Positions 16-13,686 of a stretch of DNA of 64,000 bases are shown here, one piece after another. Both the position numbers and the translations under genes were made by a program. The notes beneath the pieces were generated by a model that saw only the letters and a program-made list of their open reading frames with translations, had not been told where the DNA came from and did not search any database. This DNA is from Anaeromyxobacter sp. Fw109-5 (GTDB lineage Bacteria > Myxococcota > Myxococcia > Myxococcales > Anaeromyxobacteraceae): assembly GCF_000017505.1 (NCBI RefSeq), contig NC_009675.1, forward strand, positions 3,295,001 to 3,359,000. Direction: 5' to 3'. Positions within the stretch are counted from its first letter, which is position 1, and every line of letters begins with the position of its first letter.

Positions 16-534
16 TCACTTCGAGAAGACGAGGTCGTTCGGGGCGGCGGTGTGGCAGCCGACGCAGCCCTTCACATCCGGCCCCGCGACGGGCTTGCCG
101 TCCCGCGTGAAGACCTTCCAGTCCGGCGTCGCGCGGATCCAGAACCAGGAGCCGTTGCGCTTCGCCATGACGGTGAGCGACGCCGCGTCGGCGTCGGGCT
201 GGGGGCGGTTCTCCTTCACGATGACGCTGCCCTCCGGGTACTGCCCGCCCGCCGTCGGCCCCTTCGCCGCCGCCTCGTTGCGCCAGGCCACGACGTAGGT
301 CCCCCCGTGGCCCTTCGAGAGCACGGGCCTGGCGTACTGCGGGAACGTGCTCCAGGATCGATAGCCCTTCGCCTCCTCGAGGATCGCCCGCGCCTCACCG
401 GCCGGCGCGACGCCCTTCTGCTCCTCCCCTTTGCCGTGCCCGGGCTGCGCTTGCGCGGCCGACTGCGCCAGCACGCCCACCGCGGCGACGCTCGCGACGA
501 GCGCCGCCAGGGCGACACCGTGGACTCCCTTCAT
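16..534 (-). CDS. Cytochrome P460-type c-type cytochrome
   Basis: A 172-residue exported protein with an N-terminal signal peptide (residues 1-29) and one heme c motif, CVGCH (157-161), near the C-terminus. The central part (YPEGSVIVKEN at 99-109, then a W/F-rich strand) has the look of the cytochrome P460 fold. Family members are periplasmic mono-heme proteins, some of which oxidise hydroxylamine; substrate here is unknown. The start at 534 is preferred over a longer open frame because GGAGGAGCC precedes it and the signal peptide begins there. It is divergent from the Sox-like operon and may share its control region. Confidence 0.8.
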   Translation of the reverse strand: MKGVHGVALAALVASVAAVGVLAQSAAQAQPGHGKGEEQKGVAPAGEARAILEEAKGYRSWSTFPQYARPVLSKGHGGTYVVAWRNEAAAKGPTAGGQYPEGSVIVKENRPQPDADAASLTVMAKRNGSWFWIRATPDWKVFTRDGKPVAGPDVKGCVGCHTAAPNDLVFSK

Positions 535-878
535 CGTGGCTCCTCCGTCCAGGCGCTCCACCTGCAGTGTCGAGTGCACTAGGCCGGGCGCCGCGCCGAG
601 GACACGGCGCGGATGGGCCGTCGCGACGGGGCCAGGACATCGGTGAGCGCGCGACCACGCGCCAGGCAGGATCCCCCAGGGACGAGCGTCCGCCCGGGAG
701 AAGGAGAGTCGCTGCGAGGGCGGGAGCACGTCCGCTTCTCCGCCCGTGAAGCGGCTGCTGCCGCCCCCGGTCCCGACGCGGCGCGCCAGGACGCGCACTT
801 ATGAGACTTGACGCCGGTCAAGCGCAGCAACACGGAGTGAAACGAACGCGCAGACCATCGCCAAGGAGGCATCGACTC
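535..878. other. Divergent intergenic control region
   Basis: A 344-base gap between the divergent P460 gene and the Sox-like operon. Apart from the FNR/CRP-like palindrome at 807-822 and the AAGGAGG ribosome binding site near 862-868, I see no ORF with a plausible start and no RNA-like structure. It must hold promoters for both directions, but I could not assign -35/-10 boxes in this GC-rich background. Confidence 0.5.
807..822. promoter_or_regulatory. FNR/CRP-family-like palindrome
   Basis: CTTGAC-GCCG-GTCAAG is a perfect 6+4+6 inverted repeat, 56 bases before the operon start at 879. It closely resembles the FNR/ANR consensus TTGAT-N4-ATCAA, differing by one symmetric base per arm. The location suits control of the Sox-like operon, and possibly the divergent P460 gene, by an oxygen- or redox-responsive CRP/FNR regulator. 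No such regulator is encoded in the window, so this is inference from the motif. Confidence 0.55.
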
Positions 879-1598
879 ATGCCACGCCAGCGACTCATCC
901 CGAGCTCGATCCTCGCCGTTCTCGTCACGGCCGCTCTCCCCTCCTCCGTCCTCGCCTACGAGGTCGCGCCGGTCGCGGACGGCGGGACCATCAGCGGGAA
1001 GGTCACGTTCAGCGGGCCCGTCCCGACGAAGAAGATCATCCCGACCAAGGACAAGGAGGTCTGCGGCGACATCCGCGAGGAGCCGGAGATCGTCGTCGGC
1101 GCGGACAAGGGCGTCCTCGACGCGGTCGTGTACCTGAAGTCCGTCGAGAAGGGGAAGGCGTTCCAGAAGCCCGCCCAGAAGCCGGAGATCGTGAACAAGG
1201 GGTGCCGCTTCGTCCCCAACGTCCAGGCGTTCCCGGTCGGGACGGTCGTCATCGTCAACTCCGACCCGGTCATGCACAACACCCACGGCTTCCACGACAA
1301 GGCGACCGTCTTCAACGTCGCGCTGCCGATGAAGGGGCAGCGCATCGAGCGGCCGCTCAAGAAGCCGGGCATCACGCGCGTGGAGTGCGACGCGCACGGC
1401 TGGATGCTCGCGTGGATCTACGTCGCGGACAATCCGTACTACGCCGTCACGCAGAAGGACGGCGCGTTCAGCATCACCGACGTGCCGCCGGGGAACTACA
1501 CGCTCGTCGCCTGGCACGCGTTCACGGGCCCGACCGAGGTGGCGGTCACCGTGAAGCCGAAGGAGGCGGCGAAGGTCCCCGTCGAGCTGAAGAAGTAG
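879..1598 (+). CDS. Cupredoxin-like periplasmic protein
   Basis: A 239-residue protein with a Sec signal peptide (1-26, ending VLA). A beta domain contains MHNTHGFHD (132-140) and ECDAHGWM (169-176), so H133, C170, H173 and M176 are candidate type 1 copper ligands, spaced as in plastocyanin-like proteins. The C-terminal part (about 185-239, DGAFSITDVPPGNYTL) resembles a carboxypeptidase regulatory-like beta sandwich. The start at 879 has AAGGAGG upstream. It is the first gene of a tight five-gene operon, and a role as a small electron carrier or copper protein fits. The ligand set is inferred and copper binding is untested. Confidence 0.7.
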   Translation: MPRQRLIPSSILAVLVTAALPSSVLAYEVAPVADGGTISGKVTFSGPVPTKKIIPTKDKEVCGDIREEPEIVVGADKGVLDAVVYLKSVEKGKAFQKPAQKPEIVNKGCRFVPNVQAFPVGTVVIVNSDPVMHNTHGFHDKATVFNVALPMKGQRIERPLKKPGITRVECDAHGWMLAWIYVADNPYYAVTQKDGAFSITDVPPGNYTLVAWHAFTGPTEVAVTVKPKEAAKVPVELKK

Positions 1599-1636
1599 TC
1601 CCGCCGTTCGGGATCGAAGAGTCGGAGGAGACGCCG

Positions 1637-2785
1637 ATGGAACACAATCAGAGAGAGCGAAGCGAGCTGCACGAAGTGCTGCAAGGCTCCGGCGAGCGCC
1701 CCGACCGTTCGCTGGTCATCACCCGCCGCACCTTCCTCCACAGGTCGCTGCTGACCGGGACGGCGGGCGCGGCCGCCTACGGTTGGTTCCCGCTGATCAA
1801 CACGCTCGACCTGGCCCTCGGTGCGCAGCAGGGGTTCAAGTTCGCCTGGATCTCCGACACGCACCTGTATCCCAAGGACGTCAACACGCGCTTCGTCGAC
1901 AAGGCGGTGCGCGCGACCAAGGAGGTCATCGCGATGAGGCCCGCCGCGGACTTCCTCATGTTCGGCGGCGACCTCGCCCAGCTCGGCGATCCCGTGGAGC
2001 TCGACCTCGGCAACGAGATCCTCAAGGAGGTGAAGATCAAGAAGTACTTCATCCCGGGGGAGCACGACTGGTACCTCGACATGGGGCAGCGGTGGACGAA
2101 GCTGTTCGGCCAGCCCAACTGGACGTTCGACCACAAGGGCGTCCGCTTCGTCGGGCTCGACACGGTGAGCCGCGGCCCGGACTACTGGACGGCCAAGAAG
2201 ATGAGCCCCAAGGAGCGGATGGGCCACATGGCCACGCTCGACGGGAGCGTGGCCGGGGCGTGGGCCGGCGTCGGGCGCGATCAGCTGGAGTGGCTCGGCA
2301 AGACGCTGTCGGACTGGCGCAAGGACGCGCCCGTCGTCGTCTTCAGCCACAACCCGCTCTACGAGTACTACCCGCCCTGGAACTTCTGGGTGCGCGACTG
2401 GCGGGAGGTGAACGAGGTCCTGCGGCCTTTCACCAACGTCACCAACATCCACGGCCACACGCACCAGGTCCTCTACAACGAGCTCGGCAAGATGCGCTCC
2501 ATCGGCATGCTCGCCACCTCCTGGCCGTGGCCCTACGCGCCGCAGGGCGTGCCGGCGCTGACGAAGTGCATGGTCCGCGCCGATCCCGGCGACCACTTCG
2601 ACGGCGTCGGCTGGTCGTCCCTGACGCTCACCGCCGCGAACAAGGTGGAGAACGAGTACGTCATGTGGCGGAAGGACGTCCTCGCGGAGGCCGCGACCGA
2701 CTCGGGATGCGCGGACAACGTCAACCAGGAGACGCACCCGCGCGTCGCCGACCAGGCCTGGCCCTACTACGGCGCCTACAAGTGA
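1637..2785 (+). CDS. Tat-exported calcineurin-like metallophosphoesterase
   Basis: A 382-residue protein. The ITRRTFLHR segment (28-36) followed by a small hydrophobic stretch is a twin-arginine signal, with an unusually long n-region. All metallophosphoesterase motifs are visible: D74-x-H76, GGD (D112), GEHD (141-144), SHNP (H238) and HGHTH (272-276), which together bind two metal ions. It belongs to the superfamily that contains SoxB, the Sox thiosulfohydrolase, but is shorter and lacks the 5'-nucleotidase C-terminal domain. Because it sits just before SoxA- and SoxYZ-like genes it may be the hydrolase of this module. A stand-alone phosphoesterase role cannot be excluded. Confidence 0.8.
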   Translation: MEHNQRERSELHEVLQGSGERPDRSLVITRRTFLHRSLLTGTAGAAAYGWFPLINTLDLALGAQQGFKFAWISDTHLYPKDVNTRFVDKAVRATKEVIAMRPAADFLMFGGDLAQLGDPVELDLGNEILKEVKIKKYFIPGEHDWYLDMGQRWTKLFGQPNWTFDHKGVRFVGLDTVSRGPDYWTAKKMSPKERMGHMATLDGSVAGAWAGVGRDQLEWLGKTLSDWRKDAPVVVFSHNPLYEYYPPWNFWVRDWREVNEVLRPFTNVTNIHGHTHQVLYNELGKMRSIGMLATSWPWPYAPQGVPALTKCMVRADPGDHFDGVGWSSLTLTAANKVENEYVMWRKDVLAEAATDSGCADNVNQETHPRVADQAWPYYGAYK

Positions 2786-2818
2786 ACAGGCGGGCGTCAC
2801 GACGAAAGGAGGAACGGT

Positions 2819-3262
2819 ATGAAGATCGCGCGATACGGGTTCGTCGCGGCGGGCGCCTTCCTCGGGCTCATGATGATCTCCCAGGCGCTCGCTCACAAGG
2901 CGAAGCACTCGCCCGAGCAGCTCAAGGCGTTCGAGGACGTGTTCATGGAGCAGGTCCGGCTGGGGGACCTGCTCTTCCACGGTGACGAGGCGGCGCAGAA
3001 GAAGCTCGGGGTCCAGCTCTCCAAGACGGGGATGGCCTGCGCCATGTGCCATCCGTTCGGCACGGACGTCCACCCGCACGAGTTCCCCAAGTTCCAGGAG
3101 CAGATCGGCCAGTTCGCCACCCTCCGGGACATGATCAACTGGTGCGTCGAGAAGCCGAACGAGGGCGTGAAGCTCGAGCCGGACTCGCCCGCCATGAAGG
3201 CGCTGGAGACGTACATCTACTATTCCAATCGAGGCAGCACGCTCGACCCGGGGAGACATTGA
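2819..3262 (+). CDS. SoxA-like monoheme cytochrome c
   Basis: A 147-residue protein with a signal peptide (1-25) and a single CAMCH heme motif (74-78). The sequence after the heme, FPKF, then LRDMINWC (102-109) and LETYIYYSNRG (129-139), resembles the C-terminal heme domain of SoxA. There the conserved cysteine of the INxC segment is, as I recall, the heme-ligating cysteine to which thiosulfate is joined; here it is C109. Classical SoxA is roughly twice this length and pairs with SoxX, which is absent here. AAAGGAGG precedes the start. It is the third gene of the operon, immediately before the SoxYZ fusion. Confidence 0.7.
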   Translation: MKIARYGFVAAGAFLGLMMISQALAHKAKHSPEQLKAFEDVFMEQVRLGDLLFHGDEAAQKKLGVQLSKTGMACAMCHPFGTDVHPHEFPKFQEQIGQFATLRDMINWCVEKPNEGVKLEPDSPAMKALETYIYYSNRGSTLDPGRH

Positions 3263-3284
3263 GCCGAGCCCTGCGCGCTGCGCC

Positions 3285-4127
3285 ATGACGCGCGATCCCG
3301 CCGCACCGATGGCCGGCGTCACCCGCAGACGCTTCCTGGGGATGACGTCGGCCGCCGTGGGGCTCTGGATCCGGCCGGCCTGGGGCGACGGCGCCCGCGA
3401 CGGACCCCGCCGCTCCTCCTCGCTCGCGCGCGATCACCGTCCGGTGCTCCACCTCCCGGAGACGACCCGGAACGGCGCGAAGGTTCCGATCCTGGTGGAG
3501 ATGGCGCACCCGATGACCGAGGACCACCACATCACCCGCGTCCAGGTGGTCAACGCGACGGACCCCGTCCCGCTGAAGGGCGACTTCCACCTCACGCCGG
3601 GGAATGGGCGCGTCTACCTCGCGTTCCAGGCGCGGATGCACGGCGGCGCCTCGGAGGTGTCGGTCACGGCCGAGTGCAACCGCCACGGCGAGTGGTCCAC
3701 CACGCGCACGATCGAGATCCCCGCGGACGCGGGCGGCTGTGCCGGGACCGCGCCCTCGGAGGGGGGGCCCACCCTCCCCGACGACATCCGCGGGCCCGCG
3801 ATCCGGATCGCGGAGCTGGTGGAGCGCGGCAGGCTCCGTCGCGGAGAGCTCGTCCACGCGAGCGTGAAGATGAGGCATCCGAGCCGGACCGGCCTCGCGC
3901 TCCGCGACGGGCGCTTCGTGCAGGAGTCGGAGCCGCTCCACCTCGAGGAGCTGGAGGTCCACTACGGCGGCCAGCGCGTGAGCCGCTTCTCGCTCACCCC
4001 GGCGCTGGCCGACGATCCGTTCATCACGTTCTGTCTGCTGGCGCGGGTGGAAGGGCCGCTCACGGTCCTCCTCACCAACAACCGGGGCCGGCGCTTCGAG
4101 GCGACGCACGACCTCCGCTTCTCCTGA
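3285..4127 (+). CDS. soxYZ: Fused SoxY-SoxZ sulfur carrier protein
   Basis: A 280-residue protein with a Tat signal (TRRRFLGM at 13-20). Residues about 50-150 match SoxY (KVPILVEMAHPMTEDHH, then HLTPGNGRVYLAFQARM) and end in GGCAG (150-154), the counterpart of the GGCGG swinging arm that carries the substrate on cysteine. Residues about 175-280 match SoxZ (HASVKMRHPSRTGL, then DDPFITF). In classical Sox systems SoxY ends at the arm and SoxZ is a separate chain; here the arm with C152 is internal, between the two domains. Related SoxYZ fusions occur near quinoprotein dehydrogenases, but none is nearby. No clear ribosome binding site decides between starts at 3285 and 3309. Confidence 0.85.
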   Translation: MTRDPAAPMAGVTRRRFLGMTSAAVGLWIRPAWGDGARDGPRRSSSLARDHRPVLHLPETTRNGAKVPILVEMAHPMTEDHHITRVQVVNATDPVPLKGDFHLTPGNGRVYLAFQARMHGGASEVSVTAECNRHGEWSTTRTIEIPADAGGCAGTAPSEGGPTLPDDIRGPAIRIAELVERGRLRRGELVHASVKMRHPSRTGLALRDGRFVQESEPLHLEELEVHYGGQRVSRFSLTPALADDPFITFCLLARVEGPLTVLLTNNRGRRFEATHDLRFS

Positions 4128-4163
4128 CGGGTGAAGCGGCGTCTCGCGGGAGGGAGGCGAACG

Positions 4164-4685
4164 ATGCGCAAGATCCCGGCGGCACTGGGGCTGGCGGTGG
4201 TCCTCGGCGCCTTCGCCGACGCGGCGCAGCCCGGCGCAGGAGGTTCACCCGGCCGGACCGCGACGAGCGAGCAGCTCGCCAGGTTCTTCGACCGGACGAA
4301 GGGGATGACCCGGGTGGTCCCCGCCTCCGACGTGTGGGAGAGCCTCCACGCCGGCCGGAGCAGGTACCTCGTCGTCGACGTCCGCCCCGCGGACGAGTAC
4401 GCGAAGGGCCACGTCCCCGGGGCGATCAGCATCCCGGTCGACGTGCTCTTCCTGGAAGGAAGCCTGGCGAAGCTGCCGTCCGGCCGGACGCCGATGATCC
4501 TCCTCGTGTGCCAGAGCGGGCACGTGGAGTCCATGGCCCTCGGCGGGCTCGCCGCCTTGGGCTACGAGCCGTACGTGATGCGGTTCGGCATGATCGGCTG
4601 GAACGCCGAGACGAGGGTGAAGGCCGGCGCGCCCGGCCAGGAGCCCGACACCGTCCGAGGCGTGGGCGGCCCGATCGAGAGGTAG
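4164..4685 (+). CDS. Secreted rhodanese-like protein
   Basis: A 173-residue protein with a signal peptide (1-21) and one rhodanese domain: VDVRPADEYAKGHVPGAISIPVD (71-93) and an active-site loop with C116 (VCQSGH). Rhodaneses carry sulfur as a persulfide on this cysteine. The loop is not the CxxCW form typical of PQQ-associated rhodaneses. It is the last gene of the Sox-like operon, so it could pass sulfane sulfur to or from the SoxYZ carrier. The start at 4164 follows GGGAGGGAGG; an in-frame codon at 4131 has no such site. It ends two bases from a convergent gene. Confidence 0.8.
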   Translation: MRKIPAALGLAVVLGAFADAAQPGAGGSPGRTATSEQLARFFDRTKGMTRVVPASDVWESLHAGRSRYLVVDVRPADEYAKGHVPGAISIPVDVLFLEGSLAKLPSGRTPMILLVCQSGHVESMALGGLAALGYEPYVMRFGMIGWNAETRVKAGAPGQEPDTVRGVGGPIER

Positions 4686-4687
4686 CG

Positions 4688-5227
4688 TCAGAATCCAATG
4701 CCGGTGTGGAGCACCACGTCCAGGGTGAGGTCGGGATCGGGATCCGAGCGCAGGAACGTGGGAAACGCGGCCTCGACGAACCACGTGGCGCCGCCGCCCA
4801 GATCGACCAGGCCCTTGTTGACGAGCGGGATGACGCCGACGTTGGCTGGCGCGCCGATCACCGACGCCACCCGGAGGCCGAGCGCCACCGGTCCGGCGCC
4901 GTAGACCACTCCCGGATCGATGACGAGCGAGCTCTCCCCCCTCGGGTCGACCGGGTTCTGAACGATCATCTCGAAGTCGATGACCAGCCTCTCGCTGATC
5001 TTCACGCTCACGCCGACGGGATTCGCGATGACGAAGTCGTCGCCGATGTTCGTCGTGTCGTCGGACGTGACCGTCACGAGCGGCGTCGCGATCCCGACGT
5101 GCCCCCCGACGCTCCTCTCCGGGGGCGGTGCCGCCATCGGCGGCGGCTCCTGCGCCTGCGCCCCGGCACGCAGCGCGACCGCCAGAACGATCGCCAGTCG
5201 GCAAGCGAACGACATGAACTTGCTCAT
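4688..5227 (-). CDS. Predicted outer-membrane beta-barrel protein
   Basis: A 179-residue protein of unknown function with a signal peptide (1-25, ending AQAQ). The mature part is a series of alternating hydrophobic beta strands with G/N/D turns and ends in an aromatic residue (TGIGF), as outer-membrane barrels do. A longer open frame starts at 5341, but GAGGAGG lies just before the ATG at 5227 and the signal peptide starts there. It lies about 110 bases downstream of the oxidase operon on the same strand and may be read through from it. Confidence 0.55.
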   Translation of the reverse strand: MSKFMSFACRLAIVLAVALRAGAQAQEPPPMAAPPPERSVGGHVGIATPLVTVTSDDTTNIGDDFVIANPVGVSVKISERLVIDFEMIVQNPVDPRGESSLVIDPGVVYGAGPVALGLRVASVIGAPANVGVIPLVNKGLVDLGGGATWFVEAAFPTFLRSDPDPDLTLDVVLHTGIGF

Positions 5228-5337
5228 GGCTCGACCTCCTCCAGGCGCTGGGCACTCCTGGTGCGGCTTCCCTAAGGCCCTTCGCCCTGCGCGCGCGGGC
5301 ATGACGGGCAGCAACGATGGTGGGAAGCACGGGTGAT

Positions 5338-6261
5338 TCACTTCCGGTCAGGCGTGGGGGGCTTCCACGCCGCGTCGGCCGCCCGGTTCTCGTCGGCCAG
5401 CCGGCGCGCCGCGTCCGTGCCCTTCAGCGCCACGAGCGAGTCCACGAAGTGCACGAGCGCCCAGAGGTCCTCCTCCGGCAGCGAGCCCTGCCAGGTGGGC
5501 ATCGCCGTCCCTCCGACCCCGGAGGCGATGACCCGGTACAGATCCTCCTTCCGATGCTCCGGCCGGACGGAGCGCAGCTCGGAGCGCACGAAGTCCGGCG
5601 GGAGCAGCTTCACGCCGTAGTCGCTGTCCGTGAGGACCGCCCCGTACATGTCCTCGCGGAACGAGCTGGTGGCGTTGCCGGTCAGCTCCTTCGAGGCCTG
5701 GCTGATGAAGGCTCTCGACGCGTACGCCGGGTGGCAGGAGAGGCACTGGGCGAGGCCGTGGTAGAGCTTCCGGCCGCGCGCCACCGCGTCCGCCTCCCGC
5801 CCGGCCCAGGGGTCGGGCGTGGGCCGGATGGCCTCCCCGGGCTCCTCGTCCTTCCAGCGCGGCGAGAACGTCTTCAGGTACTGGACGATCTCCCGGACCT
5901 TGTGCTCCGGGACCCCGTCCCACGCCAGCATGGCGGTGCCGTGCAGGCCGCTGCGGACGATGCGCTCGAGGTCCTCGTCGTTCGGGAGCATGCCGCCCTG
6001 CACGGCGGCGAACTTGAACACTCCCAGGGTGAAGTCGCGCGGCGGGGGACGCAGCCCCTTCGCCGCGGGCCCCTTGCCGTCGCCCTTGTCGCCGTGGCAT
6101 GCGCGGCAGTACTGCACGTAGGCGCGCTCGCCCTCGGTGAGCACCTCGGCCGGCACCACCTTGCCCCCGAGCGTCCGCGGCTCGTCGAAGCCCTGCGGCC
6201 GGTAGCCCTTGCAGGCCACGGCGGCGATCGCGAGGAGCAGGAGCAGCGACGCGCGGATCAT
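5338..6261 (-). CDS. Diheme c-type cytochrome lipoprotein
   Basis: A 307-residue protein with a lipobox (AVAC, lipid on C17) and two cytochrome c domains: CRACH (52-56) with later M111, and CLSCH (173-177) with a later TAMPTW methionine. These are probably His/Met hemes on a membrane-anchored periplasmic protein. It is the last gene of the oxidase operon, 13 bases after subunit III. Subunit II has no heme c domain of its own, so this protein is the likely direct electron donor to the CuA centre, taking the place of the c domain in caa3 oxidases. Donor role is inferred from context. Confidence 0.85.
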   Translation of the reverse strand: MIRASLLLLLAIAAVACKGYRPQGFDEPRTLGGKVVPAEVLTEGERAYVQYCRACHGDKGDGKGPAAKGLRPPPRDFTLGVFKFAAVQGGMLPNDEDLERIVRSGLHGTAMLAWDGVPEHKVREIVQYLKTFSPRWKDEEPGEAIRPTPDPWAGREADAVARGRKLYHGLAQCLSCHPAYASRAFISQASKELTGNATSSFREDMYGAVLTDSDYGVKLLPPDFVRSELRSVRPEHRKEDLYRVIASGVGGTAMPTWQGSLPEEDLWALVHFVDSLVALKGTDAARRLADENRAADAAWKPPTPDRK

Positions 6262-6274
6262 GGCGACCTCGACC

Positions 6275-6913
6275 TCACGCCAGGTAGACGGTCAGGTAGA
6301 GCACTCCCCACACGACGCCGACGAAGTGCCAGTACCAGCCCCACAGCCGCACGTCCGTGCGGAGGGACTCGCCGCCGGCGCGCGCGCGGACGGCGAGCCA
6401 CGCCAGCGCGGCCAGCCCGACGACCACGTGCAGCGCGTGGAACGCGGTGAACGCGTAGAACACCGACGGGTAAGGACCGCCGGCCGGCACGAGCCCTTGC
6501 CGCCAGAGGCCGCTCCACACCACCCCCTGCACGAGGAGGAAGATCGCCCCGAGCACGACCGCGGCCGCGAGCGCCGCCGTCACGCCGCGGGGCCGGCGAA
6601 GCTCCTGCGACCGGGTGGCGCGCACCACCGCCGCGCTGGACGCCGCGATGACGAGCGTGTTCAGGCCCGGGAGCAGGCGCGGGAGCGGCGGGGCGTCGAG
6701 CGGCGGCCAGCTCGGCGCCCGGGCGCGCAGGAACGCGTACGCGAAGAACAGCGCCACGAAGAGCATCGCCCAGGAGCCGAGGAACACGGCCATGCCGACG
6801 TAGGCGGTGCGCTCCGCGCCGTGCGGGCGGCGCCGGTAACGGGTGAGGTCGCGCACGAGGCCGGGCGCCGGCTCGCGGCCGCGTTCCTCGCGCTGGGCCA
6901 TGACGCGCGCCAC
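6275..6913 (-). CDS. ctaE: Cytochrome c oxidase subunit III (copy 2)
   Basis: A 212-residue membrane protein with about five transmembrane segments. The C-terminal pattern FHALHVVVGL, then WGWYWHFVGVVW, is that of heme-copper oxidase subunit III. An in-frame ATG at 6901 (MAQ) is an alternative start. It starts four bases after subunit I ends. A second, different subunit III gene heads the same operon (10027-10644), so the enzyme may use both or may need one of them for assembly. Confidence 0.9.
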   Translation of the reverse strand: MARVMAQREERGREPAPGLVRDLTRYRRRPHGAERTAYVGMAVFLGSWAMLFVALFFAYAFLRARAPSWPPLDAPPLPRLLPGLNTLVIAASSAAVVRATRSQELRRPRGVTAALAAAVVLGAIFLLVQGVVWSGLWRQGLVPAGGPYPSVFYAFTAFHALHVVVGLAALAWLAVRARAGGESLRTDVRLWGWYWHFVGVVWGVLYLTVYLA

Positions 6914-6917
6914 CGCC

Positions 6918-8708
6918 TCAGCCCTTCCTGGCCGCGACCGCCGCCGCGCCGTCGCCCGGCAGGAGCTCCGCCTGTCCCGCGAAGTCCCTGCCGGTGAGCC
7001 GCCGCACCTCGGGGTTCGAGAGCTCGTGGGGCCCCCGGACGACCTCGGGGATCCGATCGAAGTTGTGGAACGGCGGAGGCGAGCTGGTCGCCGTCCACTC
7101 GAGCGTCGTCACGTGCCACGGGTTCGGGCCGGCCGGGGCGGCGCGCCTGCCGAAGACACCCCTGAAGAAGTTCACGACGAAGAAGAGCTGCCCCGTGAAG
7201 AGCGCGAACGCGAAGTAGCTCGTCCACCGGTTCAGGCCGCGGAGCCCCTGGATGAACGTGTACTGGAACGGATCGAAGAGCCGCCGCTCCTGGCCCGCGT
7301 ACCCGGCGAGGAGCTGCCCGCCGAAGACCAGCGTGAGCCCGAGGAAGGTGAACCAGAAGTGGATCTTCCCGAGCCGCTCGCCGAGCCGCCGTCCGAACAT
7401 CTTGGGGAACCAGAAGTAGATCCCGGTGAACGCCCCCATCACCGAGGCCGCCGCCATCGTGAAGTGGAAGTGGCCGACCACGAACATCGTGTCGTGGAGG
7501 TAGAGGTCCATGCTGATGTCACCCAGGAAGAGCCCGGTGAGCCCGCCGACGCCGAAGACGAAGACCGTCCCGAGCGCGAAGAGCATCGGCGTGTCGTAGC
7601 GGAGCGAGCCCTGCCAGAGGGTGAGGACCCAGTTCACCACCACCACCATCGACGGGATGCTGATGAGGAGCGTGAAGAGCATGAAGCCCTCGCCCAGGAG
7701 CGGGCTCATGCCGGTCATGAACATGTGGTGGCCGTAGACCATCGCGGAGAGGACGGTCACGAGGACCATCGCCCACACCGTCCCGCGGTACCAGTGGTGG
7801 GGCTTCCGCGCGAAGAAGGAGAGGACGTCGCCGAGGATCCCCCAGGCCGGGAGGATCATGATGTAGACCTCGGGGTGGCCGAAGATCCAGAACAGGTGCT
7901 GCCAGAGGATGGGATCGCCCCCGCCGCGCACCGCCGACGCTCCCGCCACGAAGAACTCCGTGCCGAAGCTCCGGTCGAGCAGGAGCAGGAGCGCCGCCGA
8001 GCCGAGCACCGGCACGAACAGGGCGTTCAGGATGGCGGTCAGCCACAGGCCCCAGATCGTGAGCGGCAGGCGCATGTACGTCATCCCCGGCGCTCGGAGC
8101 CGGATGACCGTGGTGATGTAGTTCACCGCCCCCATGGTCGACGAGACGCCGGTGACGAAGATGGCGGCGACGACGAGCGTCTGGCCCATCCCCGGCATGC
8201 CCACGTTCGTCGAGAGCGGCGTGTACGTCGTCCACCCGGCGCCCGCGGAGCCGAGCGGGGCGAAGAACGAGGCGAGGACCAGCAGCTGCGACAGCAGGAA
8301 GGTCCAGAACGAGTACATGTTGAGGCGCGGGAAGGCCATGTCGCGCGCGCCGATCATGAGCGGGATGAGCAGGTTCCCGAACGTGCCGATGAGCACGGGC
8401 GTCACGGCGAAGAAGATCATGACGAGCCCGTGCGTGGTGAAGATCTGCTGGTACGTCGCCGGCCCGATCACGCCCGACTCGCCGAAGAGCAGCCTCCCCA
8501 CCAGCGGCACGGGCCGGTACGGGAACCCCCACTGCCAGCGGATCAGCATGGCGAGCGCGCCGCCCACCAGCAGGAACAGCAGCCCCGCCCACAGGAACTG
8601 CTTCGCGATCATCTTGTGGTCGATCGAGAAGACGTACCTCCGCCAGAACGAGGTCGGCGCCGGGTGGATCGGCTGCGCCTCCTCCATGAGCGCCTGCGCG
8701 GGCGTCAT
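6918..8708 (-). CDS. ctaD: Cytochrome c oxidase subunit I (aa3 type)
   Basis: A 596-residue catalytic subunit of a proton-pumping heme-copper oxidase with 12 or more transmembrane segments. Visible landmarks include IFTTHG (low-spin heme ligand), WIFGHPEVYI (CuB histidine and the His-Tyr crosslink), GHHMF (two CuB histidines) and VVGHFHFTM (heme ligands). The HPEVY glutamate marks an A-type oxidase. The start at 8708 overlaps the end of subunit II by four bases. A longer open frame upstream is the shadow of subunit II. Confidence 0.97.
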   Translation of the reverse strand: MTPAQALMEEAQPIHPAPTSFWRRYVFSIDHKMIAKQFLWAGLLFLLVGGALAMLIRWQWGFPYRPVPLVGRLLFGESGVIGPATYQQIFTTHGLVMIFFAVTPVLIGTFGNLLIPLMIGARDMAFPRLNMYSFWTFLLSQLLVLASFFAPLGSAGAGWTTYTPLSTNVGMPGMGQTLVVAAIFVTGVSSTMGAVNYITTVIRLRAPGMTYMRLPLTIWGLWLTAILNALFVPVLGSAALLLLLDRSFGTEFFVAGASAVRGGGDPILWQHLFWIFGHPEVYIMILPAWGILGDVLSFFARKPHHWYRGTVWAMVLVTVLSAMVYGHHMFMTGMSPLLGEGFMLFTLLISIPSMVVVVNWVLTLWQGSLRYDTPMLFALGTVFVFGVGGLTGLFLGDISMDLYLHDTMFVVGHFHFTMAAASVMGAFTGIYFWFPKMFGRRLGERLGKIHFWFTFLGLTLVFGGQLLAGYAGQERRLFDPFQYTFIQGLRGLNRWTSYFAFALFTGQLFFVVNFFRGVFGRRAAPAGPNPWHVTTLEWTATSSPPPFHNFDRIPEVVRGPHELSNPEVRRLTGRDFAGQAELLPGDGAAAVAARKG

Positions 8709-9523
8709 TCTCTCCTCCTCCACTCCCAGCCCCAGCGGGCGTCGGCGTCCTCCGGGTCGTGGGCGCGGCGGGCGTCGGCCACCGCGGCGTCGAGCCATGC
8801 CCGGTACCGCTGCGGCGGGAGCACGGTCAGGACGCCCCGCATCTTGTAGTGGTTCGGACCGCAGTGCTGGGCGCAGGCGATCTCGTACTCGCCCGCCGTC
8901 CGCGCCTGGAACGTGAGCCTCGTGATCTCTCCCGGGACCGCGTCCCGCTTCACGCGGAAGTGCGGCAGGTTGAAGCTGTGGATCACGTCGACCGAGGCGA
9001 GCTGGATGAGCACCGGGGCGCCCACCGGGACGCGGATGTCGTTCAGCGTGACCGCGTCGTCCTCCGTGTTGAACCGGCCGTCGGGCCCGGGGTACCGCGC
9101 CTGCCACGCCCACTGGTGCGCCTGGACCTCGATGCGCACGGTGTCGGCCCGGTCCTCCGCGGCGGCGAAGTTCCAGAAGAAGCGGCGCATGTCGACGATG
9201 GTGTGGAAGAACAGGTACCCGTCGACGATCAGCGCCACGAGCGCGACGAAGCCCAGCGCCACGCCGATGGAGAGCTTGCTCCCGTGGCTGTGGACCGCCG
9301 CGTGGTCGCGCCGGTGGCGGACGAGCGCCACGAGGAGCACCGCCCCGACGATCACGAAGATCAGGGTGGTCGCCGCGATCGTGTAGTGGATGAGCGAGTC
9401 GACCCGCCCGCCGTCGAGCGACGCGTCGCGCGGCAGCCCGAACCCGGACTCCGGCGCGGGGGCGGCCGCCGCCGCGCGCGCGACCCCGAGCGCTCCCGCG
9501 ACCACCAGGCGGCGCCACGTCAT
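8705..9523 (-). CDS. ctaC: Cytochrome c oxidase subunit II
   Basis: A 272-residue protein with a signal-like N-terminus, two transmembrane hairpin helices (about 46-68 and 85-108) and a periplasmic cupredoxin domain. The CuA site is complete: H182 (VIHSF), then C217, C221, H225 and M228 (CAQHCGPNHYKM). It ends shortly after this domain with no heme c motif, so this is not a caa3 fusion. The start at 9523 overlaps the stop of the small CPVC protein. Role: accepts electrons from cytochrome c and passes them to subunit I. Confidence 0.96.
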   Translation of the reverse strand: MTWRRLVVAGALGVARAAAAAPAPESGFGLPRDASLDGGRVDSLIHYTIAATTLIFVIVGAVLLVALVRHRRDHAAVHSHGSKLSIGVALGFVALVALIVDGYLFFHTIVDMRRFFWNFAAAEDRADTVRIEVQAHQWAWQARYPGPDGRFNTEDDAVTLNDIRVPVGAPVLIQLASVDVIHSFNLPHFRVKRDAVPGEITRLTFQARTAGEYEIACAQHCGPNHYKMRGVLTVLPPQRYRAWLDAAVADARRAHDPEDADARWGWEWRRRE

Positions 9524-9702
9524 CGCTCGTCTCCCGCCGCGCGGATGGCGCGGATCACCAGCGCGGCGACCACGTAAGGCGCCGCGATCATCCCGCCCAC
9601 GAGGAGCGCGGAGGCCGGGTTCTGGTCGCGCGCGCACACCGGACACGCGACCGCCACGGAGGGCGCGAGGGCCGCGGCGAGGGCGAGGAGGCGCCTCCTC
9701 AT
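9520..9702 (-). CDS. Small CPVC membrane protein in oxidase operon
   Basis: A 60-residue protein: a signal-like hydrophobic N-terminus ending in VACPVCARDQNP, then one transmembrane helix (about 32-52) and a short basic tail. The CPVC pair (residues 20-23) would face the periplasm at the membrane. I do not recognise a named family. It overlaps subunit IV upstream by four bases and subunit II downstream by four, so it is co-translated. A paired cysteine in this position could suit copper delivery or redox handling during CuA assembly, but that is a guess from context. Confidence 0.65.
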   Translation of the reverse strand: MRRRLLALAAALAPSVAVACPVCARDQNPASALLVGGMIAAPYVVAALVIRAIRAAGDER

Positions 9703-10019
9703 GACGTCGCCCTCCAGGCGCGCTCGGCGATGAGGATGACGCCGTAGGCGGCGGGCGCCAGCAGCGGGCCGAGCACCGTGAGCCGCAGGATGCGCGTCTC
9801 GAAGCGCAGGTGCATGTAGAAGAGCGCGATGAGCGCCGCCTTGGCGACGGCGAGGCTCACCAGCGCGAGGACCACGGCCGCGCGTGCGATCCCGGGCGTC
9901 CGCGCGACCCCGAGCTCGACCAGGGTCAGGACGCCGAGGACGACGAAGACGACGACGTACTGCCGCCGGTGCACGGCGCCGTGCGCCGTGGCTCCCTGCG
10001 CTCGGGCGAGATCGGCCAT
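9699..10019 (-). CDS. Cytochrome c oxidase subunit IV family protein
   Basis: A 106-residue protein with three predicted transmembrane helices (about 21-40, 46-68 and 80-98). The ALIALFYMHLRFE segment is characteristic of the prokaryotic cytochrome oxidase subunit IV family. It lies seven bases after the first subunit III and overlaps the small CPVC gene. Subunit IV stabilises the oxidase complex rather than taking part in catalysis. Confidence 0.88.
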   Translation of the reverse strand: MADLARAQGATAHGAVHRRQYVVVFVVLGVLTLVELGVARTPGIARAAVVLALVSLAVAKAALIALFYMHLRFETRILRLTVLGPLLAPAAYGVILIAERAWRATS

Positions 10020-10026
10020 CGCGGCC

Positions 10027-10644
10027 TCAGGGCATGAGGTAGACGAAGGAGAAGACGAAGATCCAGACGAAGTCGACGAAGCACCAGTACAGCCCGAGGA
10101 GCTCGACGTGGTGCGCGGTCGCGAGCCCGCGCAGGTAGCGCGCGAGCACGGCGAGGATGTAGACGACGCCGACCAGCACGTGCAGCCCGTGGTAGCCGGT
10201 GATCACGTAGAAGGTGCTCGCGCGCGCCGAGCGACCGAGGACGAGCCCCTCCTCCGTGAGCCCCGGCCCCCAGAGCCCGAACCACTCGTGGTACTGGCCG
10301 GCCAGGAACAGCACGCCGCCCGCGGCGGTCACCGCGAGGAGCGCGGCGGCGGCGCGGCGCCGGCCCTCGGCCGCGGCCGCCCAGGCGAGCACGTTCGTGA
10401 GGCTCGTGGCGACGAGCAGGAACGTGAGGAGGGCGGTGAACGGGATCGCGAGCGCCGGCTCGCCCTGCCGGATCCACTCCGGCTGGCCGCTCCGCAGGAT
10501 CCCCATCGCGATGAGCAGGCCGGCGAACGAGAAGGCGTCCGAGAGGAGGAAGATCCACATGCCGATCTTCCCCGGCGTCGCCGCGCCGTACTGGGCGTCC
10601 GGCGGCCAGGCAGCTGGCGCGTGACCGTGGAGCGCGACAGCCAT
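10027..10644 (-). CDS. ctaE: Cytochrome c oxidase subunit III (copy 1)
   Basis: A 205-residue membrane protein with about five helices, including MWIFLLSDAFSF near the start, FLAGQYHEW, YVITGYHGLHVLVGV and the C-terminal WCFVDFVWIFVFSFVYL. These are standard subunit III signatures. It is the first gene of the oxidase operon, divergent from the sco gene across 130 bases that should contain both promoters. Its sequence differs clearly from the other subunit III of the operon (6275-6913), so this is an old duplication or a dedicated role, not a recent copy. Confidence 0.93.
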   Translation of the reverse strand: MAVALHGHAPAAWPPDAQYGAATPGKIGMWIFLLSDAFSFAGLLIAMGILRSGQPEWIRQGEPALAIPFTALLTFLLVATSLTNVLAWAAAAEGRRRAAAALLAVTAAGGVLFLAGQYHEWFGLWGPGLTEEGLVLGRSARASTFYVITGYHGLHVLVGVVYILAVLARYLRGLATAHHVELLGLYWCFVDFVWIFVFSFVYLMP

Positions 10645-10774
10645 GCGAGGTCCTCGAGCGATGAGACTCGGACTCGGCTAAGGTTGGCGCTGCTACGCCG
10701 CGGCGCCATGCCGCAATCCATCCTCGTTGGGTCCGCCGGCTTGACCGCGCGCGATCGCGGACTACGACGAGGGC

Positions 10775-11428
10775 ATGCCCGCCTCCGCGCGCGCCGCACG
10801 ACTCGACTCCGCGGTCCGCGCCGCTGCTGCTCGTCCGCTCCTCTGGGTGGGAGCCGTCCTCCTGCTCGCCGCCTGGCCGGTGGTCTGGGCGCTGCGGACA
10901 GACGTGCCGCCTCCGCCGCCCGTGCTGGGGGAGGTGCCCGCGTTCGAGCTCGTCGATCAGGACGGGCGAGCGTTCGGCTCCGCCGACCTGTCCGGCCGGA
11001 TCTGGGTGGCGAGCTTCATCTTCACCCGCTGTCCGACCGTCTGCCCGGCCATCACGCGTCAGATGGAGCGCGTGCAGGAACGGACGCGGAGCCTCGAGCC
11101 GGCGCTCCACCTCGTCTCGTTCAGCGTCGATCCCGAGCACGACACGCCCGCCCGGCTCGCCGCCTACGCGCGCGAGCACCGCGCGAATCCTCGCCGGTGG
11201 CGGTTCCTCACCGGCTCCACCGACGCGGTGCGGGAGACGGTCGAGCGGGGCCTGCGGGTGAGCATGGGCCGCGAGGGGGGCGACCCCTCGCCTGCCGCCA
11301 TCTCGCACGGCACGCACCTCGTCCTCATCGACAGCTCGGCGCGGATCCGCGGCTACTACGACCCCGCCGAACCCGACGCCCTCGACCGGCTGGTGCGCGA
11401 CGCCGCGCTCCTCGCCAACCGCGGATGA
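10775..11428 (+). CDS. sco: SCO-family CuA assembly protein
   Basis: A 217-residue protein with one N-terminal membrane anchor (about 20-41) and a periplasmic thioredoxin-like domain. It has the SCO copper site: C86 and C90 (CPTVC), and H178 in ISHGTHLVLID. SCO proteins insert copper into CuA of subunit II. It is transcribed away from the oxidase operon it is expected to serve. Confidence 0.92.
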   Translation: MPASARAARLDSAVRAAAARPLLWVGAVLLLAAWPVVWALRTDVPPPPPVLGEVPAFELVDQDGRAFGSADLSGRIWVASFIFTRCPTVCPAITRQMERVQERTRSLEPALHLVSFSVDPEHDTPARLAAYAREHRANPRRWRFLTGSTDAVRETVERGLRVSMGREGGDPSPAAISHGTHLVLIDSSARIRGYYDPAEPDALDRLVRDAALLANRG

Positions 11429-11685
11429 TCCGCCCCGGCAGCCGCCTCCCTTCGTGGACCAGCGCGGTCGGGTGAGGGAGCTTCCCCCGGTTGTGGACGA
11501 GACGCGCGACGTGGGACCGTGCCGCCCCGGTCCAGGTCAGTCTCCCGACGACCAAGGCCCCCGCCACACGCCGCGCCGCGCCCACGGTCAGTCTCCGCCG
11601 CGACGATCAAGGGTCCAGACAGAAAACCCCGCACCCGACTCGCCGCGGCGCAAGCGCGCCGGCGTGCCGAGCGACGGAGCTCTTC

Positions 11686-13686
11686 ATGAGCAGCGAGATG
11701 TACGAACGGATGCGCAGCAACCCCAAGTTCCACCTGCTGGTCGCCCGGCGTGGACGGTTCGCGTGGACCCTCGCGATCACCGTCCTGGCCGTCTTCTACG
11801 GCTTCGTGATGCTGGTGGCCTTCAACCCCGGCGCGCTCGGCGTGCCGGTCGCGGACGGCTCGCCCTTGACGGTCGGCGTGGCCCTCGGCCTCTTCATGTT
11901 CGTCTTCTTCTGGATCCTCACCGCCCTCTACGTCCGGCGGGCGAACGGCGAGTTCGACGCGCTGACCGCGGACGTCGTGAAGGACGCCCGGGACCGGGCG
12001 GCGCAGGAGGCCGCGCGCAAGGCCGGCTCGGTCGCCCAGCGCACGCTGGGCGCCCTGCTCCTGCTCGCCGCACCCGCCCTCGCCCTCGCGGGCCCGGCGG
12101 TGGACGGGATCGCGGAGAAGCAGCCCCTCAACGTGCACGCCATCGGGATGTTCCTCGCGTTCGTCGCCCTGACGATGGGGATCACCTACTGGGCGTCGCG
12201 CCGGACCCGCTCCACGGCCGACTTCTACACGGCCGGCGGCGGCATCACCGGCTTCCAGAACGGCCTCGCCATCGCCGGTGACTACATGTCGGCGGCCACG
12301 CTGCTCGGCCTCACCGCCATGACGTACACGCAGGGCTTCGACGGCTACATGTACATGATCGCGTTCTTCGTGGGCTGGCCGGTCATCCTGTTCCTCATGG
12401 CCGAGCGCCTGCGGAACCTGGGCCGCTTCACCTTCGCCGACATCACGTCCTACCGCCTCGACCAGGGGAAGGTGCGCACGATGGCGGCGGTCTCGTCGCT
12501 CATCGTGGTGTGCTTCTACCTCATCGCCCAGATGGTGGGCGCCGGCCAGCTCATCAAGCTGCTGTTCGGGCTCGACTACGCCGTGGCGGTGATCGCCGTG
12601 GGCACGCTGATGATGGTCTACGTGATCTTCGGCGGGATGATCGCCACCACGTGGGTGCAGATCATCAAGGCGGGCATGCTGCTCACCGGCGGCACGCTGG
12701 TGATGGTGCTCGCCATGAGCCGGTTCGGCTTCTCCTACGCCACGCTGGTCGAGCGGGCCACCGCCGTCCACAAGCTCGGGCCCAAGCTCTTCGCGCCCGG
12801 CCCGCTCCTCGCCGATCCGGTGAACGCCATCTCGCTGGGCATGGGGCTCATGTTCGGCACGGCCGGCCTGCCCCACATCCTGATGCGCTTCTTCACGGTC
12901 ACGAACGCCAAGGAGGCCCGCAAGTCCGTGCTCTACGCCTCGGGCTTCGTCGGCTACTTCTTCAACGTCATCTTCCTGATGGGCCTCTGCGCGATCCTCA
13001 TCGTCGGCCAGGACCCCGCCTTCTTCGAGGGCGGCAAGCTCGTCGGCGGCGGCAACATGGTGGCCATGCACCTCGCCAAGGCCGTCGGCGGGAACTACCT
13101 CCTCGGCTTCCTCGCGGCCGTCGCCTTCGCGACCATCCTCGCGGTCGTCTCGGGCCTCGCGCTCGCGGGCGCCTCCGCGATCTCGCACGACCTCTACGCG
13201 CGCGTCATCAAGCAGGGGAAGGCGACCGAGCAGGCCGAGATGCGCGTCTCCAAGATGGCGACGGTCGGCCTCGGGATCGTGGCCATCGGCCTCGGGATCC
13301 TCTTCGAGAAGCAGAACGTGGCGTTCATGGTGGGCCTCGCCTTCGGCATCGCCGCCGCGGCGAACTTCCCGGTGCTGATCCTCTCGATGTACTGGAAGGG
13401 CCTCACCACCCGGGGCGCCGTCGCGGGCGGCTACGGCGGCCTCGTCTCCGCGGTGCTGTTCGTCCTGCTCTCGAAGTCGGTGTGGGTGAGCGTCCTCGGC
13501 AACGCGAAGGCGATCTTCCCTTACGACCAGCCCGCGCTCTTCGCGATGCCCGTCGCGTTCCTCGTGACCTTCGTCGTCTCGAGGCTCGACGCGTCCCCGC
13601 GCGCCCGCGCCGAGGCGGAGGCGTTCGAGGATCAATACGTGCGCGCCCAGACCGGCTTCGGGGCGGCGACGGCGAGCAAGCACTGA
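11686..13686 (+). CDS. actP: DUF485-ActP fusion, sodium:acetate symporter
   Basis: A 666-residue protein. Residues about 5-105 match the small membrane protein YjcH/DUF485 (two helices, then [10 protein letters not shown]). Residues about 117-666 match the acetate/glycolate permease ActP of the sodium:solute symporter family throughout, including [20 protein letters not shown] (split here only for naming) and [16 protein letters not shown]. The ActP part keeps a signal-like stretch ([14 protein letters not shown] at 125-138) now buried inside the chain. In most bacteria these are two adjacent genes. The open frame is continuous with no stop at the junction. Role: uptake of acetate or other short carboxylates. 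Confidence 0.93.

Follow-up and report, generated by a model that had tools for sequence, protein, structure and literature searches.

A fused SoxYZ-like protein of Anaeromyxobacter sp. Fw109-5 with the iron-ligand residues of superoxide reductase

Gene cassette and domain layout

The open reading frame at positions 3285-4127 (forward strand) of the window, the 64,000-nucleotide stretch of Anaeromyxobacter sp. Fw109-5 DNA analysed here (G+C content 73.5%), translates into a protein of 280 amino acids, in which a desulfoferrodoxin-like SoxY domain is fused to a SoxZ domain. The gene belongs to a cassette with the following members:

801-1598, forward strand: carboxypeptidase-regulatory-like/FN3-like secreted protein, first gene of the cassette (Pfam fn3_3 above cut-off); also adjoins the cassette at loci L009 and L011
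1637-2785, forward strand: Tat-type metallophosphoesterase of the SoxB superfamily without the SoxB-type C-terminal domain (PF00149, 45.9 bits, sole Pfam match)
2819-3262, forward strand: one-haem SoxA/TsdA-type cytochrome c, 147 amino acids, CxxCH at residues 74-78 (PF21342, 37 bits, above cut-off)
3285-4127, forward strand: fused SoxY (desulfoferrodoxin-like)-SoxZ protein, 280 amino acids (translation, Pfam, NCBIfam)
4131-4685, forward strand: exported rhodanese-like protein, start at GTG 4131 or at ATG 4164 (Shine-Dalgarno-like GGGAGG) (PF00581, 48.6 bits)

The intergenic gaps measure 33 bases between metallophosphoesterase and cytochrome, 22 bases between cytochrome and SoxYZ, and 3 or 36 bases between SoxYZ and rhodanese, depending on the start of the latter. 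The order of secreted protein, metallophosphoesterase, cytochrome, SoxYZ and rhodanese is identical in genome G023, while in G022 the final three genes are seen before the contig ends and in G029 the cassette is kept with the rhodanese gene positioned upstream instead. On the reverse strand, divergent from the cassette, positions 16-798 encode a cytochrome P460-type protein. Directly downstream, positions 5338-11428 hold a haem-copper oxidase cluster situated mostly on the reverse strand (COX1, COX2, two COX3-like genes, COX4, cytochrome c and SCO1), and oxidase or SCO1-like genes also adjoin the cassette at loci L010 and L011.

The cytochrome gave profile matches to SoxA (2c1d and 1h31) and to TsdA. 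It resembles both in its CxxCH motif and in a conserved cysteine at the ligand position, but differs from them by its single haem domain of only 147 residues. CxxCH and C109 are invariant in the orthologues of the cytochrome, with C109 as the probable second haem ligand.

Within the fused protein, the following features were located, all on the forward strand:

3423-3719: SoxY/superoxide-reductase-like beta-sandwich domain, about residues 47-145 (PF13501, 54.8 bits; PF01880, 43 bits)
3435-3437: H51, predicted iron ligand 1
3507-3527: H75 and H81 in the motif HPMTEDH, predicted iron ligands 2 and 3
3675-3686: C131 and H134 in the motif CNRH, predicted iron ligands 4 and 5
3732-3746: carrier arm GGCAG, residues 150-154, with the codon of C152 at 3738-3740
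3741-3836: linker between arm and SoxZ domain, residues 153-184, predicted to be disordered
3837-4106: SoxZ domain, residues 185-274 (PF08770, 45.5 bits, above cut-off)

The Pfam SoxY model (cut-off 28.4 bits) covers residues 53-152 and reaches its last profile position at C152, while the SoxZ half was matched to the solved SoxZ structures 4uwq and 1v8h in a profile search. All four orthologues known to us, the protein itself included, match the SoxY, SoxZ and desulfoferrodoxin models. The N-terminus is of Tat type (R14-R15-R16-F-L); the NCBIfam Tat model scores 14.3 bits, slightly below its cut-off of 16.7, and matches one of the four orthologues with E=1.4e-4.

Carrier arm and iron-ligand residues

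The initial annotation had placed GGCAG at residues 150-154, with C152 inside the chain rather than at its end. Translation confirms this position, as do the Pfam boundaries, with SoxY ending at C152 and SoxZ spanning 185-274. However, the SoxZ domain does not follow the arm directly, as had been stated, because about 32 residues (153-184) intervene. Retention of the cysteine by this fused protein was likewise borne out: G151 and C152 are invariant in all four orthologues.

Structure prediction, which had been proposed as a check on the exposure of the arm, points in the same direction. In the AlphaFold2 model, calculated from a shallow alignment, the mean pLDDT is 64, with values of about 80-90 in the SoxY domain and a SoxZ domain that is confident in part. 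The final SoxY strand stops at residue 145, residues 146-174 are devoid of secondary structure, and pLDDT falls under 50 for residues 153-160, 163-180 and 182-188. The model thus fits a flexible, exposed loop formed by the C152 arm and the linker, a flexibility that is supported rather than proven, because low model confidence is no proof of flexibility.

In addition to the SoxY model, the SoxY half matches the desulfoferrodoxin model PF01880 with 43 bits (cut-off 22.2), a match that the initial annotation had overlooked together with the ligand residues described below. The NCBIfam ferrous-domain model TIGR00332 reaches 32 bits, below its cut-off of 61.9, and a profile comparison with desulfoferrodoxin gave E=1.4e-11 over 78 columns. 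The iron of superoxide reductase centre II is held by four histidines and one cysteine (PMC3116461). The complete set is present here as H51, H75, H81, C131 and H134, and all five residues are invariant in the four orthologues. The spacing of six residues between H75 and H81 and of three between C131 and H134 is the same as in desulfoferrodoxin. H51 aligns with the histidine of the desulfoferrodoxin EKH motif in HMMER alignments with solved superoxide reductases, on which its placement is based, and is shifted in a multiple alignment with short desulfoferrodoxins. The Glu-Lys pair preceding the first histidine of superoxide reductase is replaced by R49-D50 in this protein and by R-E in the other orthologues. 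According to a title cited in PMC3116461, a natural superoxide reductase without this glutamate is known and the residue is not strictly required.

The five-ligand set is absent from the 12 quinoprotein-associated fused SoxYZ and four canonical SoxY examined, as well as from viral fused SoxYZ (seven loci) and from three fused SoxYZ of another phylum. In silico replacement of the five ligands by alanine lowered the desulfoferrodoxin score from 43 to 13.5 bits, a fall that follows from the way such a model is built. More telling is that the SoxY models remained unmoved: SoxY changed from 54.8 to 53.5 bits, TIGR04557 stayed at 80.7 bits, TIGR04487 changed from 39.8 to 38.6 bits, and SoxZ was nearly unchanged. 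Since these scores hardly change, no SoxY model expects the five ligands. TIGR04487, a SoxY paralogue family, was considered as a family sharing the ligands and was rejected, its score being insensitive to their removal. A chance origin of the desulfoferrodoxin match was rejected on the E-value, the invariance of the ligands and the tree described below. Judged from these residues, the protein probably binds iron.

Relatives among SoxY, fused SoxYZ and desulfoferrodoxins

Among 195 genomes of the phylum, full-length orthologues with 53-60% identity were found only in G022, G023 and G029, so that the carrier is present in four genomes including the source genome. In a tree of SoxY and desulfoferrodoxin domains, canonical SoxY and fused SoxYZ group on one side (support 100/100) and desulfoferrodoxins on the other (99/97), with the four proteins in between. 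After removal of the ligand motifs, the four proteins still stand between desulfoferrodoxin (98/90) and all SoxY (100/100), and their grouping as a single clade is not rejected (p 0.68). Because the tree is unrooted, the direction of change between desulfoferrodoxin and SoxY can only be suggested. The SoxZ tree, otherwise poorly resolved, sets the four orthologues and canonical SoxZ apart as distinct groups. Fold comparison of the model gave ties between SoxYZ of P. pantotrophus (Z 8.7, 94 residues, 2.5 Å) and superoxide reductases (Z 8.1-8.6). The aligned structural rows take in residues 45-148 only, and the SoxZ half is therefore judged by sequence and not by fold. A scan of genome contigs with the protein as query returned two ordinary desulfoferrodoxins as sole matches.

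Compared with superoxide reductase and desulfoferrodoxin centre II, the group around the 3285-4127 protein shares the fold, the five iron-ligand residues and the 6- and 3-residue spacings. In contrast, it lies outside the desulfoferrodoxin clade, has R-[D/E]-H for E-K-H, and possesses SoxY-type strands, a GGC arm and a C-terminal SoxZ domain. With the canonical SoxYZ heterodimer of P. pantotrophus and of the same-genus genomes G031 and G036, it has in common the SoxY fold up to the arm cysteine and the SoxZ partner. Canonical SoxY, however, is a separate chain that ends in GGCGG, lacks the ligands and is accompanied by SoxB and dihaem SoxA. In the 3285-4127 protein GGCAG is internal, and TIGR04488 yields 33.7 bits against an equivalog cut-off of 125. 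Canonical SoxY of Methylosinus and Indioceanicola (L031, 6001-6354, and L032, 6001-6312) carry SPMTE and M-S-D-G where desulfoferrodoxin-type motifs read HPMTE and C-N-x-H-G (C-N-R-H-G in the present group), a pattern that looks like a decayed iron site.

Among the NCBIfam models, TIGR04557 is the best match with 80.7 bits, below its curated cut-off of 140 and compared with 250 bits for a genuine member in G015; the corresponding profile match spans 210 columns with E=4e-16. TIGR04557 carriers and phage fused SoxYZ resemble the 3285-4127 protein in the SoxY-SoxZ fusion with a GGC[SA] cysteine between the domains. Those examined are devoid of the iron-ligand set, and the 3285-4127 protein lies outside the clade of TIGR04557 and fused SoxYZ. 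Moreover, annotated TIGR04557-type carriers adjoin quinoprotein relay (SoxH-type) metallohydrolases, whereas the neighbours of the 3285-4127 protein are different: neither a SoxH-type metallohydrolase nor a PQQ or quinoprotein dehydrogenase was found among the neighbouring gene products scanned (16 to 13686).

Fused SoxYZ have been discussed in symbionts (PMC11237559), reported from the ped cluster of P. putida (PMC12997753) and described from phages, where the substrate-binding cysteine was published as 'ggCs' by Kieft et al. (PMC8190135). An internal cysteine of the KASGGC[SA]AP type is present in 12 of 12 bacterial quinoprotein-associated fused SoxYZ taken from plasmids and G015. With an alignment of fused SoxYZ as query, an internal cysteine was also seen in all viral fused SoxYZ recovered (seven loci, one pair identical). 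Viral scans with orthologue, canonical SoxY and desulfoferrodoxin alignments gave no relatives, and phage records gave no match. In a sample of 388 genomes of another phylum, one ordinary superoxide reductase-like protein was detected along with three fused SoxYZ, which lack the ligands and all have an internal SGCLS cysteine. At the place of HPMT...H these three (L102, L103 and L104) show an [AS]PM-type relic; they possibly represent a separate fused lineage. An internal carrier cysteine is thus normal for fused SoxYZ and is not new. Fused homologues without the cysteine, whose existence the initial annotation had claimed, were not encountered among the bacterial, viral and other-phylum proteins examined. 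Reading the arm as an internal tethered loop remains sensible, but its presentation as a novel twist on the swinging arm does not hold, because an internal cysteine is usual in fused SoxYZ.

SoxB (TIGR04486) was not found in the source genome at 1e-5, while it was found in G031, G032, G036 and G099. The same-genus genomes G031, G032 and G036 encode split SoxY with a GGCGG end, SoxZ, dihaem SoxA and SoxB; the metallophosphoesterase and the cytochrome of the cassette were not detected in them at the thresholds used. With SoxB scored over its cut-off, canonical split Sox (L028, L029 and L030) and the iron-ligand SoxYZ (window 1637-4685) are mutually exclusive, with four genomes against four.

Relatives of the metallophosphoesterase occur in 57 and relatives of the cytochrome in 60 of the 195 genomes, mostly in family f6 and without this carrier. 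The two genes (window 1637-3262) are conserved as a pair in over 50 genomes of that family and in G182 (L063-L068). In several of the f6 loci read, a dihaem cytochrome c peroxidase-like gene adjoins the pair and SoxYZ is absent. Since the pair recurs in more than 50 genomes without this carrier, the two proteins need not be loading enzymes. The idea of a 'mini SoxB/SoxA' dedicated to this carrier was rejected as a firm claim, the pair being widespread in family f6 with no SoxYZ beside it. Both proteins are therefore taken as probable partners of the carrier.

Proposed function and competing explanations

The reading we favour, and hold to be somewhat likelier true than false, is that of an exported fused SoxYZ-like sulfur carrier whose SoxY half retains the superoxide reductase ligands for an Fe(His4Cys) site and whose C152 lies on a flexible interdomain loop. 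It is built on the domain composition, the invariance of C152 and of the five ligands, the conserved cassette, the missing SoxB match and the position in the tree. Against it stand the exchanged Glu-Lys pair, the many genomes that have metallophosphoesterase and cytochrome but not this carrier, and the finding of the carrier in only four genomes. The presumed steps, from export through the binding of iron to the loading with sulfur, and the parts played by the neighbours may be pictured as follows. Following export of the carrier, the adjacent Cys-ligated SoxA/TsdA-type cytochrome would couple C152 to thiosulfate or to a different sulfane donor, and the bound sulfur could then be processed or removed by the metallophosphoesterase and the rhodanese. 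Iron in the SoxY half, if bound, would provide the carrier with a one-electron redox site. This site might take superoxide, in which case the cytochrome or the sulfur on the arm would be the reductant, or it might act on the bound sulfur itself. The latter option leads to a bolder proposal, which we regard as improbable: a metallo-carrier whose Fe(His4Cys) site acts on the sulfur presented by its own C152, so that one protein would both carry sulfur and oxidise or reduce it.

A rival explanation is an ordinary fused SoxYZ-like carrier of the quinoprotein-associated kind, in which the desulfoferrodoxin ligands are an inherited, metal-free relic. That TIGR04557 is the best NCBIfam match, with a profile match over 210 columns, and that SoxY and superoxide reductase have a common fold would be explained in this way. 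However, the TIGR04557 score stays below the cut-off, the neighbours scanned include no quinoprotein dehydrogenase or SoxH, and the SoxY-domain tree sets the protein outside all SoxY and fused SoxYZ (100/100). Moreover, a relic would hardly keep five separate ligands invariant among orthologues of 53-60% identity, and we consider this explanation unlikely. The view expressed in the initial annotation, an ordinary Sox swinging-arm carrier made novel by its internal arm, draws on the conservation of C152 and its probable location within a flexible loop. It takes no account of the iron-ligand set, presupposes novelty in what is the rule among fused SoxYZ (cf. PMC8190135), and meets a genome from which SoxB is absent; it is very improbable.

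Alternatively, the protein could be a periplasmic superoxide reductase with the SoxZ half in a docking or structural role; C152 would then not carry sulfur but serve as a redox thiol or as a disulfide partner. The complete centre II ligand set agrees with this, and exported superoxide reductases (TAT-SOR) have been described (PMC3116461). Furthermore, the partner pair occurs elsewhere with a peroxidase-like gene, and a terminal oxidase cluster lies downstream. Yet the SoxY-type GGC arm, the SoxA-type cytochrome and the rhodanese together point to sulfur. The exchange of the Glu-Lys pair next to the first histidine also speaks against it, although the title cited in PMC3116461 attests a natural superoxide reductase that has no such Glu. 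In addition, an Fe/Mn superoxide dismutase is already encoded in the source genome, and a pure defence role of the carrier is therefore possible but not required. Altogether, a superoxide reductase without carrier function appears quite doubtful.

Kinship between SoxY and desulfoferrodoxin is already known, because 'desulfoferredoxin-family proteins' served as outgroup to SoxY according to a supplementary legend of PMC6382920. In the literature covered, which is partial and therefore gives no proof of novelty, no publication was found that has 'SoxY' together with 'desulfoferrodoxin', or 'SoxYZ' together with 'superoxide reductase', in its text, nor one on a protein that combines the characteristic features of SoxY and superoxide reductase. 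In its features, the 3285-4127 protein appears to connect an enzyme of oxygen defence with the Sox pathway's sulfur carriers. With a group that unites iron ligands, carrier arm and SoxZ, ideas on how the Sox carrier arose become testable, and the question is raised whether an iron site can act on sulfur bound to a carrier. Should the metallo-carrier proposal be true, the group would represent a living intermediate between superoxide reductase and the SoxY of the Sox pathway, which has no iron. For the organism itself, a metal-reducing myxobacterium, the locus suggests a sulfur cassette that does without SoxB.
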